From Acidobacteriota bacterium (GTDB lineage Bacteria; Acidobacteriota; Vicinamibacteria; Vicinamibacterales; CAVVIG01): a stretch of 12,043 nucleotides of DNA. Numbering within the stretch: position 1 is the stretch's first letter; the number at the start of each line of letters is the position of its first letter. The position numbers were made by a program, and so were the translations under genes. The notes below the pieces were generated by a model. It did no database searches, was not told the origin of the DNA, and saw only the letters and a program-made list of their open reading frames with translations. The stretch spans positions 1 to 12,043 of the forward strand of contig QHWL01000060.1 of assembly GCA_003222555.1 (NCBI GenBank), given 5' to 3'. Shown piece after piece: positions 3,779 to 6,341 of this stretch.

Positions 3779-4501
3779 ATGATTAGGCGGATCCGATTTC
3801 CTGCGCTGCTGTTGCTGTTCCTTGCGAGCGGCTGTGCTGCCCTGATTTTCGAGGTGACGTGGCTGCAGCTGCTGCAGCTCGTGATCGGCTCCTCGGCGGT
3901 GTCGGTGGGCGTACTGCTCGCAACCTACATGGGCGGAATGTGCCTCGGCGCGTTGGCGGTGCCTCGCATCTTCTCCACCGCGCGACATCCGCTGCGCACC
4001 TACGCGGCACTCGAGCTGGCCACTGGCGTCATTGGGGTCGTGGAGCTGTTCGCGATTCCGCTCGTCGGCCGGGTGTACTCGGCGCAAATCGGCTACGGAC
4101 TCCTTGGTTTTCTCCTGCGCGGTCTCGTCTGTGGAATCTGTGTGCTCCCTCCGACCGTTTTGATGGGGGCGACGCTCCCAGTCGTCGCGCGCTGGCTTGG
4201 TGCGACGTCGAAGGACGTATCGGGGGTTGGACTTCTCTACAGCGCGAATACCGTAGGGGCGGTGCTCGGATGTCTGCTGGGTGGGTTCTATCTGCTGCGG
4301 GTGCACGACATGGCCATGGCGACGCTGGTCGCTGCGGCGGTCGATGGCGTCGTCGCGGCGTCGGCCCTCGGCCTGTCAGTCCTCGAACCCCACGGCACAC
4401 CCTCTGAGGATTCCCACGGTCTGGCTAACCGCCTTCGCCAAGGCTACGCCGAAGCTTTACGCGGAGGCGGAAGCCAGACACGACGTACGGATCGCTCATG
4501 A
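3779..4501 (+). CDS. Fused MFS/spermidine-synthase-like protein, N-terminal half (frame broken)
   Basis: The 240-codon frame encodes about six membrane helices, beginning with FPALLLLFLASGCAALIFEV. This is the standard opening of the fused transporter-like/spermidine-synthase-like proteins: 'SG-x-x-AL-x-x-E-V-x-W-x-x-L-L' followed by 'G-x-x-x-G'. The family reading is clear as far as about residue 205 (ALGLSVLE). The last 30 or so codons, to TGA at 4499-4501, run through a hairpin element (4419-4479) and a shifted frame and are probably not native. The rest of the protein continues from about 4482 in the next frame. Removing 64 nt joins both parts into one 832-codon reading frame. No good Shine-Dalgarno precedes the ATG at 3779. 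The gene is divergent from the secreted-protein operon. It may be a pseudogene, a functional split gene or an assembly artefact. Confidence 0.75.
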   Translation: MIRRIRFPALLLLFLASGCAALIFEVTWLQLLQLVIGSSAVSVGVLLATYMGGMCLGALAVPRIFSTARHPLRTYAALELATGVIGVVELFAIPLVGRVYSAQIGYGLLGFLLRGLVCGICVLPPTVLMGATLPVVARWLGATSKDVSGVGLLYSANTVGAVLGCLLGGFYLLRVHDMAMATLVAAAVDGVVAASALGLSVLEPHGTPSEDSHGLANRLRQGYAEALRGGGSQTRRTDRS

Positions 4502-6341
4502 AGACGTGACTGCGGGCGCGCCATGGTCCTGGGCGGTGTATCTGGCAATCGCGCTGTCGGGATGCACGGCCCTCGGCGCCCAGGTTGTTTGGACGCGACT
4601 GCTGTCTCTGCTCCTCGGCGCAACGGTGTACACGTTCTCGATCATTCTCGCAGTCTTCTTGTTCGGCCTGGGGATCGGCAGCTGCGCTGCAGCTTTGCTA
4701 TCGCAGCGCGTGGGCCGTCCGCGGCTCATGCTGGGCTGTTGTCAACTGCTCCTGACCGCGGCAATCGCGTGGGCTGCGTACATCATCGGTCAGGTTCTTC
4801 CGTACCGGCCAATCGAGCCTACGGCATCCGGCAGTCCGTGGGTGGTCTTCGAGTTCGAGCTGCTGCGCGCCCTGTTGGCGATCCTGCCGGCGTCCAGTTT
4901 GTGGGGCGCAAGCTTCCCCCTGGCCTTGGCCGCGATCGCGATGAGCGGAGACGATCCGGCGCGACCCGTTGCTGAAACCTACGCGGCCAATACGATCGGC
5001 GCGATCGTCGGTGCGCTGGCGACCAGCCTCTGGCTGATTCCCTCGTTCGGCACACAGCGGGCCCAGCAGCTCTTCATCGGCTTGTCAGCGGTCGCGGCGG
5101 GCCTCGCCCTGATGTCCCCGGCGTTTTCCCCCCGGCCAGCGGCCTATCCCCGCGCCGGCGCGATGCGACCGAGGCCGCGGAGCCTCGGCCCCGCTGTGCT
5201 CGCAGCCTCGAGCGGCATGGCCGCGCTGCTGGCGTGGAGCGTTGCCCCCATTCCCGGAGTGACCATCGCCTACGGCCGAGCCGCTGCTTCCTGGATCGGG
5301 CACGCGCGGATTGTCTACGCAGGCGAAGGGATGAACTCGTCGGTCGCCGTCACGACCTTGCCGTCCGGGTCTTTGAACTTCCACGTCAGCGGCAAGGTGG
5401 AGGCGTCGAACGAGCTGATGGACATGCGGCTTCAGCTGATGCTCGGTCACTTGCCGGCGCTCGTGCACCAAAACCCGCGATCGGTGCTGGTTGTTGGTAT
5501 GGGTTCAGGAGTGACGGCTGGCTCATTTGTCCCGTATCCCGAAATCGAACGGATCGTCGTCGCCGAAATCGAACCGCTGGTTCCGATGGTGATCTCGCAG
5601 TACTTCGGTCGCTACAACAACAATGTCGTACGAGATTCGCGGGTCGCGGTCGTCTACGACGATGCTCGCCACTACGTCCTGACGACGACCGAGAAGTTCG
5701 ACATCATCACGACAGACCCGATTCATCCGTGGGTCAAGGGCTCAGCGGCGCTTTACACGAAGGAGTACTTCGAACTCCTGGCACGGCGTCTCAATCCGGG
5801 CGGCGTGGTGGCGCAGTGGGTGCCGCTCTACGAAAGCAGCCCGGACGTCGTCAAGAGCGAGATCGCAACTTTTTTCGACGTGTTCCCACAGGGCACGGTC
5901 TGGGACAACGGAATCGGCTACGACGTCGTTCTGCTCGGCCAGACGGGCGGGGCGACCGTCGACGTGGATCGCATGCAGCGGCGGCTGGATCGTGGCGACC
6001 ACGCTCTGGCGATCGAGTCGCTCCGTGACGTCCGATTCGGGTCGGCCGTCGATCTGCTGGCGACCTACGCCGGGCGCGCGTCCGATTTGGCGCCTTGGCT
6101 GGCGCATGCGGAGCGGAATCGGGACGTCAACTTGCGGCTTCAATATATTGCCGGACTGGATTTCAATGTCCGTCAGCGGCAGCAAATCTACGATCAGATA
6201 ATGGCGTACTGCCGTTTTCCCGGGGACCTCTTCGTCGCCTCCAATGAGATCAAGCAGCGGCTGAGAAAGTCTTTCGACATGAAGGAACTGTTGAGAAAAT
6301 CTCTGGCACAGCGGCGCTCCAAGACTCAGGACGAAAATTGA
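4281..6341 (+). CDS. Fused MFS/spermidine-synthase-like protein, C-terminal part
   Basis: The frame is open from GTG 4281, but native sequence begins only near 4482 (residue 68); earlier codons are an out-of-frame shadow of the upstream gene plus the hairpin element. From residue 80 on come about six helices that repeat the N-terminal half (ALSGCTALGAQVVWTRLLSL). A Rossmann methyltransferase-like, spermidine-synthase-type domain follows: the glycine-rich VLVVGMGSGVTAG (402-414), an acidic strand end AEIEP, DDARHYV, then DPIHPWVKGSAALYTKEYF (479-497) and NPGGVVAQWVPLYE. These match the family commonly annotated as fused MFS/spermidine synthase. True aminopropyltransferase activity is unproven for it, and no speD or other polyamine gene is near. 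I see no independent ATG or ribosome binding site before the first native helix, so separate translation is doubtful. upp follows 14 nt downstream. Confidence 0.8.
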   Translation: MGSICCGCTTWPWRRWSLRRSMASSRRRPSACQSSNPTAHPLRIPTVWLTAFAKATPKLYAEAEARHDVRIAHEDVTAGAPWSWAVYLAIALSGCTALGAQVVWTRLLSLLLGATVYTFSIILAVFLFGLGIGSCAAALLSQRVGRPRLMLGCCQLLLTAAIAWAAYIIGQVLPYRPIEPTASGSPWVVFEFELLRALLAILPASSLWGASFPLALAAIAMSGDDPARPVAETYAANTIGAIVGALATSLWLIPSFGTQRAQQLFIGLSAVAAGLALMSPAFSPRPAAYPRAGAMRPRPRSLGPAVLAASSGMAALLAWSVAPIPGVTIAYGRAAASWIGHARIVYAGEGMNSSVAVTTLPSGSLNFHVSGKVEASNELMDMRLQLMLGHLPALVHQNPRSVLVVGMGSGVTAGSFVPYPEIERIVVAEIEPLVPMVISQYFGRYNNNVVRDSRVAVVYDDARHYVLTTTEKFDIITTDPIHPWVKGSAALYTKEYFELLARRLNPGGVVAQWVPLYESSPDVVKSEIATFFDVFPQGTVWDNGIGYDVVLLGQTGGATVDVDRMQRRLDRGDHALAIESLRDVRFGSAVDLLATYAGRASDLAPWLAHAERNRDVNLRLQYIAGLDFNVRQRQQIYDQIMAYCRFPGDLFVASNEIKQRLRKSFDMKELLRKSLAQRRSKTQDEN
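4419..4479. repeat. Hairpin element (REP/MITE-like) inside the fused gene
   Basis: The outer arms GTCTGGCT (4419-4426) and AGCCAGAC (4472-4479) are perfect complements. After a 2/1-nt bulge the inner arms CCGCCT (4429-4434) and AGGCGG (4465-4470) pair, and TCGC/GCGG (4435-4438 with 4461-4464) extends the stem with one G-T pair, giving about 18 bp. The 22-nt top (4439-4460) contains GGCTACGCC, itself a small dyad. CACG occurs just outside or at the edge on both sides (4415-4418 and 4479-4482), a possible 4-bp target duplication. The reading frame of the host gene changes across this element. Its sequence resembles palindromic interspersed repeats that I recall from acidobacterial genomes, but copy number could not be examined. 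Confidence 0.7.

Follow-up and report, generated by a model that had tools for sequence, protein, structure and literature searches.

Does a mobile hairpin interrupt the gene in which it lies, or has it become part of the encoded protein? The question is raised by a locus of an Acidobacteriota bacterium, where a gene for a fused MFS/spermidine-synthase-like protein is found as two ORFs in two different frames, with a palindromic element at the transition. The window, i.e. the whole stretch of DNA that was analysed, comprises 12,043 nt; its features are compiled in Table 1. The gene was identified through the near-identical protein P0001, which matches the NCBIfam model NF037959 (fused MFS/spermidine synthase) with 89.3 bits at a cut-off of 40 and which is also matched by Pfam Spermine_synth. 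According to the initial annotation, a small non-autonomous element had recently inserted into the linker between the two halves of the protein, thereby duplicating a CACG target and breaking the frame, and exact excision of 64 nt would restore the gene. Several of the underlying observations are sound. The hairpin has perfect outer arms, CACG words are present on both sides, and the arithmetic holds, as 2563 nt minus 64 nt (1 mod 3) leave 832 codons plus a stop. The site is indeed located in a linker, since AlphaFold assigns pLDDT values below 50 to nearly all of the residues 209-250 of P0001, a stretch predicted to be disordered and flanked by two long helices. Nevertheless, we arrive at a different explanation: very probably, the element is a REP of the type that REP-associated tyrosine (HUH/Y1) transposases mobilise and is translated as part of the linker, and the frame is broken by the loss of 8 nt at the tip of its hairpin.

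Table 1. Coordinates of the split gene and of the element in its linker (positions in the window)
Feature	Position	Strand	Remark
Fused MFS/spermidine-synthase-like gene	3779..6341	+	frame-split: ORFs 3779-4501 and 4281-6341
Long-form REP element	4418..4490	- (head on minus strand)	boundaries from other copies
REP head GTACGTCGTGTCTGGCTT	4471..4488	-	GTCG replacing the commoner GTAG
Outer hairpin arm GTCTGGCT	4419..4426	+	sequence, fold
Outer hairpin arm AGCCAGAC	4472..4479	+	sequence, fold
Inner palindrome, situated in the short-form REP loop	4427..4471		8 nt missing in the window copy
Site of the 8-nt loss, hairpin tip	4447..4448	+	position uncertain by one base; other copies and P0001 peptide
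Left CACG	4415..4418	+	CAC belongs to the flanking gene; its last G agrees with the opening base of the family GGTCC
Right CACG	4479..4482	+	REP tail, no target duplication

The key to the frame change is the protein P0001 (856 aa), which stands for a cluster of 13 sequences in the public protein set and was reported as 100% identical to a 611-residue query. Its N part is identical to the window product through residue 223, and within residues 227-856 there are two differences. When 8 nt are added to the 2563 nt of the window gene, exactly 856 codons plus a stop result. In addition, the linker of P0001 reads SEDSHGLANRLRQGYGGPPKLYAEAEARHDVRIAHED, which is the expected product of an element with a full tip; judged from the peptide, it is presumably encoded by the consensus element. 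In the loci fetched, 17 copies of the inner module could be aligned; 16 of these carry the tip GGCGGTCC, a variant of it or a longer one, and solely the window copy is devoid of a tip (six more pattern matches were judged to be due to chance and dropped). As the linker of P0001 suits the full tip, and as its 856 codons equal the window gene plus 8 nt, the element is evidently coding in P0001, from which the window deviates by the 8 nt of the tip. Thus, it is not an insertion that broke the frame, because the element lies in one frame in P0001 and the window is short of 8 nt. Likewise, excision does not lead back to the original frame: a 64-nt excision as the ancestral state is ruled out by P0001, which keeps the whole element, and the 64 nt are an arithmetical coincidence, since other lengths of 1 mod 3 would serve equally. 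Of two observations that the initial annotation had jointly named as an argument against itself, a continuous frame in an orthologue and an element present in a single copy, the former was made in the near-identical P0001, whereas the latter does not apply.

Rather, the element belongs to a family that is dispersed over the window's own genome (G000). A search with positions 4405-4490 gave 28 matches, some of which represent halves of one copy, and the long form of the window is 85% identical to the copy at C98:5499-5577. When the copies were lined up by eye, the full form read GGTCCGGCTAACCGCC...GGCGGAAGCCGGACACTACGTACG. Its opposite strand starts with GTACGTAGTGTCCGGCTT, which is the layout of a REP, a hairpin whose foot is formed by GTAG (or GTGG). 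The commonest head, GTACGTAGTGTCCGG, has a GTAG foot, and the GTCG of the window copy recurs in zero-mismatch heads on C13, C132, C259, C334 and C732. Within the window the head pattern matches a single time (4488-4471 on the minus strand; 0.07 matches expected), and the element has the conserved-arm hairpin that is a trait of GTAG REPs. Scanning the genome revealed 179 heads with at most three mismatches (6 for the backward pattern) and 118 short cores (control, 0), which bears out the notion of a repeated, non-autonomous palindromic element. The short form was detected in 23 of the 27 family genomes, with at least 20 copies in 16 of them and one to eight copies in seven, while the reversed control gave 0 in all 27. 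In 101 distinct heads of G000, a non-random sample composed of loci from the element search and of better-matching heads, we distinguished 61 short ones, in which the second arm follows within a few bases, 11 long ones with an inner palindrome in the loop, 11 that are joined to another repeat, and 18 others. It is important to note that the inner module also occurs without a REP head, e.g. in L012, L016 and L021-L024. The long form looks like a short REP inside which a palindrome has been added. Apart from this, four copies in G000 (L004, L008, L010 and L028) have a tip of 48 nt instead of 9, with a further palindrome, CCCCAACGCGG...CCGCGTTGGGG, and about 39 extra nucleotides. In L087, L096, L106, L108 and others from this genome, the REP head is fused to a second dispersed repeat (TAGAGCCTGTGAA... 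with ACGCAGAGCTCGCAGAGCACGCAGAG).

The comparison with other copies also allowed us to reconsider the boundaries of the element. The boundaries drawn initially were not confirmed, as on the right the element reaches about 4489/4490. Here CACGACGTACG corresponds to the family tail CACTACGTACG, so that the right CACG is part of the element and not of a target. There is no general target duplication in 56 flanked short copies: the 3-nt flanks match in one case (1.0 expected), the 4-nt flanks in none (0.2) and the 5-nt flanks in one (0.05), for the short form with the boundaries that we had set. The one copy with matching 5-nt flanks counts against our explanation. Altogether, the scenario of a recent insertion with CACG duplication and exact 64-nt excision appears highly improbable. 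It accounts for the 832 codons without a stop and for the coexistence of a dispersed family and a transposase, yet it conflicts with the intact P0001, with the assignment of the right CACG to the family tail, with the 56 short copies, and with the REPs or REP peptides that P0002, P0123, P0210 and the genome G001 have at the same site.

Another conceivable role of the hairpin is that of a functional RNA in the transcript of the gene, such as a terminator, a riboswitch or a frameshift signal. The predicted fold is strong, with -42 kcal/mol for positions 4405-4490 compared to -25.8 ± 3.35 kcal/mol for 200 shuffled sequences, none of which was as good (z = -4.84). However, the window has no Rfam match at gathering score, and the element, located in the middle of a gene, belongs to a dispersed family and is part of the reading frame in P0001. 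We regard a function of this kind as highly improbable, too.

The initial annotation had also suggested looking for an enzyme of the TnpA-REP type elsewhere in the genome. We found one Y1 transposase match in G000, an ORF on C412 that scores 96.2 bits (cut-off 80) with the model for REP-associated tyrosine transposases, NF047646. The start of this ORF coincides in part with a perfect REP head, and its 3' end holds a degenerate head in the opposite orientation; REPs at both ends of the transposase gene are a trait of GTAG REP/RAYT systems. This transposase probably moves, or once moved, the REP copies. Homologues (E ≤ 1e-10) were found in 12 of the 27 family genomes, and transposase presence and REP number match loosely. 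Two observations count against our explanation: six of the 16 genomes with at least 20 short REPs (G002, G005, G011, G015, G016 and G017) have no homologue at this threshold, and G006 and G008 do have one, yet merely four and two REPs, respectively. A GIY-YIG nuclease was considered as an alternative mobiliser and set aside; the genome holds a single, partial match to this domain, near a contig end.

In order to place the window copy among its relatives, we inspected the same linker in related proteins. P0002 (87% identity to the C-part query) and P0210 (342 aa, 77% over 57% of the N-part query) have a short form in frame, HGLARARHDARVAHEE and RGLAKARHYVPGHDVR, respectively. In P0123 (220 aa, 89% over 87% of the N-part query) the linker reads EGLAKARHYVGIAQKS, whereupon the protein ends. 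In all three cases the REP was read from the peptide. No REP peptide is present at this linker in P0003 (87%) and P0004-P0006. Compared with the commonest REP peptide, GPAKAGHYV, all four REP-bearing peptides have L instead of P and R instead of G (GLA...AR). These residues are what one would expect from a paired change in the stem, GTCTGG/CCAGAC, as read in the DNA of the window alone. Since the same variant residues are located at the same place in P0002, P0123 and P0210, a REP would have occupied this linker before these lineages separated, or else the same variant must have arrived there more than once; a recent arrival of the element, as initially proposed, does not fit. In G001, a genome of the same genus, the second half of the gene is immediately preceded by three in-frame short REPs, beside a gap of N. 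This gap precedes the REPs and a break follows soon after them, which counts against our explanation. The N-half ORF of P0123 stops soon after the REP peptide as well, possibly a second break at the same linker; apparently, the linker is not always read through.

At the DNA level, the linker could be mapped in 47 of 51 related-gene loci, the exceptions being L031, L062, L077 and L162. The G017 linker (L063) contains a REP, that of G111 (L158) was recognised by eye to have REP arms around a long loop, and the scan of the remaining mapped linkers was negative. In L079 (G023), two REP-like copies lie in frame in a second loop before the spermidine-synthase domain, at ORF bases of about 1377-1450. 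Inverted repeats as a general property of this linker were discarded: perfect stems of at least 8 occur in 14 of the 47 mapped linkers, and among the 12 loci listed, only L060 (stem 22, none of 67 control windows as good) and L081 (stem 9, none of 68) have a linker that surpasses all control windows from the same gene. The palindrome of L060, from a member of the Bryobacteraceae, is perfect and unrelated to the REP, and its arm is repeated in the respective genome (33 matches versus one for the reversed sequence). Another route of growth is seen in L066 and L074 (G016 and G008), the linkers of which consist of tandem repeats of the VNP and GQVGQ types, as judged by eye. One in-frame TAG occurs in the related-gene match of L033 (G000:C464), L062 and L067 (G003 and G023).

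From these comparisons the following course of events can be proposed. A short REP would have landed in linker codons between the two membrane halves in an ancestor of the species group, where its in-frame translation would yield a disordered peptide of the GLAKARHYV type. Later, in the window's species, the loop of this REP would have gained an additional palindrome, again in frame, with the insert read as GLANRLRQGYGGPPKLYAEAEARHDVR. Finally, in the window's allele or in its assembly, 8 nt at the hairpin tip would have gone, which would shift the frame and split the gene. This model predicts linker DNA of the type GGTCTGGCT...AGCCAGACACNACGTA in P0001, P0002, P0123 and P0210, and not in P0003; furthermore, the long form should turn out to be a short form with an insertion placed precisely between its two arms. 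Within the series, the long form, seen in P0001 and the window only, looks derived. It could also have been inserted whole, and the added inner palindrome may have moved recently.

As to the 8-nt loss itself, either slippage at the palindrome tip or the assembly is probably responsible. We give an even chance to an assembly artefact at the palindrome, in which case the gene of the organism would be intact and the element in frame. The assembly is fragmented (784 contigs, completeness of 82%), the missing bases belong to a hairpin tip that is kept by 16 of 16 other alignable copies, P0001 is intact, and in G001 a gap of N adjoins the REPs; against an artefact speaks that the frame of another relative, P0123, likewise ends just past the REP. 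A real allele that arose by tip slippage, with the gene switched off or split into two proteins, has a likelihood somewhat below one half. Palindrome tips are generally prone to deletions, the ORF for the C part is open, and P0123 represents a separate N half. On the other hand, none of the 120 listed out of 484 N-part matches exceeds 89% identity and no second loss is seen among them, although this is a weak argument, as the product of the window itself is unlisted, too; in addition, of the 13-member cluster of P0001 the representative alone was examined. Both possibilities fall within our explanation of a translated REP.

Next, we considered to what extent REPs reside in other genes. A crude coding test (GC content by codon position, 180 nt on each side) was applied to the 101 distinct heads of G000. 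Twelve were too near an end, 81 lacked a two-sided coding signal, and eight had one. By this test, the REPs of this genome are mostly outside genes, as is typical for such repeats, and the window copy is among the eight exceptions. Out of these eight (of 89 usable heads), four lie in one open frame and four do not, the latter being the heads of the window, of C412 (at the transposase), of C661 and of C662; the broken frames were counted against our explanation. Three of the in-frame heads are in genes for GatA (591 bits), LpxD (380 bits to PRK00892) and Lnt (358 bits), and the fourth, on C607, may be on the wrong strand. In gatA, lpxD and lnt the REP is read in the same frame, as GPAKAGHYVR, and in stretches without counterpart in homologues: residues 359-391 of GatA have almost no equivalent in the solved GatA 3h0l_A, 46 residues of LpxD stand against 11 in the LpxD chain 6ued_A, and the Lnt 5n6m_A shows a gap at the REP peptide. 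The GatA loop, found in 22 of 27 loci, measures 42 aa in G000 and 61 aa in G001 compared to 10-38 aa in the 20 other loci, and a REP core was detected in the loop DNA of G000, G001 and G015 (8 of the 22 loci were scanned). The LpxD stretch comprises 85 aa in G000 and 49-56 aa in 24 other loci; among these 25 loci, which leave out L245 because the wrong ORF had been picked, the REP core is found in G000 only. Enlarged GatA loops also occur in L206, L207, L209 and L210 (G019, G023, G021 and G017), where they look repeat-like by eye and have no REP core according to the scan. In the public protein set, a long-form peptide is found inside P0122, an RsmB/NusB-type protein, and near the N-terminus of P0121, an Lnt whose start may be misplaced.

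These findings lead to a broader, albeit tentative, proposal. In this bacterial group, transposase-linked palindromes might be a continuing source of new protein sequence, which settle in frame in a small, recurrent set of flexible loops (MFS/spermidine-synthase linker, GatA loop), grow there stepwise by in-frame nesting, and occasionally break the frame at their tip. If true, the evolution of such linkers would proceed through the insertion of REPs, their nesting and the loss of tips. At one orthologous site, the locus displays a rarely seen range of states, from the absence of any REP through a single short or a long nested REP to a set of three REPs and a broken frame, which allows testing how mobile hairpins turn into protein sequence. 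Moreover, in a single genome gatA, lpxD and lnt share one repeat, which is translated in an identical frame in all three. The case also teaches caution: a precise excision deduced from a single sequence can mislead, as it took a near-identical protein to show that an 8-base loss, not an insertion, breaks the frame.

Protein-coding REPs are already known from elsewhere, and the window element is a well-resolved further case. Its less common aspects are that one site presents a series of forms, that the long form is nested, and that several genera reuse the same loops. PMC3733652 describes REPs inside genes, cites the Rickettsia elements and mentions, for two Xanthomonas species, two REP sites that occupy roughly corresponding positions in recB. 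The same paper names Acidobacteria just for the transposases of a TIR-flanked group, and the phylum is absent from its passage that names the GTAG repeats; PMC12306157 includes three Acidobacteriota in a list of REPs. A report on protein-coding REPs in Acidobacteriota was not found in the parts of the literature that were covered, including PMC3733652, PMC6006769, PMC12306157 and PMC11778308, a weak negative in view of the limited coverage. The system shares with the GTAG REP/RAYT systems, as portrayed in PMC3733652 and PMC6006769, the hairpin, with a GTAG foot in the commonest head, the many copies, a transposase gene that has REPs at its ends, and some genic, translated copies. The window copy differs from these by the long inner palindrome in its loop and by GTCG in place of GTAG. 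MITEs are likewise short, palindromic and non-autonomous, but the element of G000 lacks a general target duplication and is associated with a transposase of the Y1 type. The Rickettsia palindromic elements, two of which (RPE-4 and RPE-6) are placed in the CGTC class in PMC3733652, are also in-frame palindromes that protein genes tolerate; judged by their description, this is a likeness of behaviour, not of membership. A REP unit joined to a stem-loop is also known from the composite repeats of Pseudomonas, which according to their description in PMC3733652 combine degenerate GTAG-1 units with other stem-loops, whereas in the element studied here the second palindrome is located inside the REP loop, between the arms.
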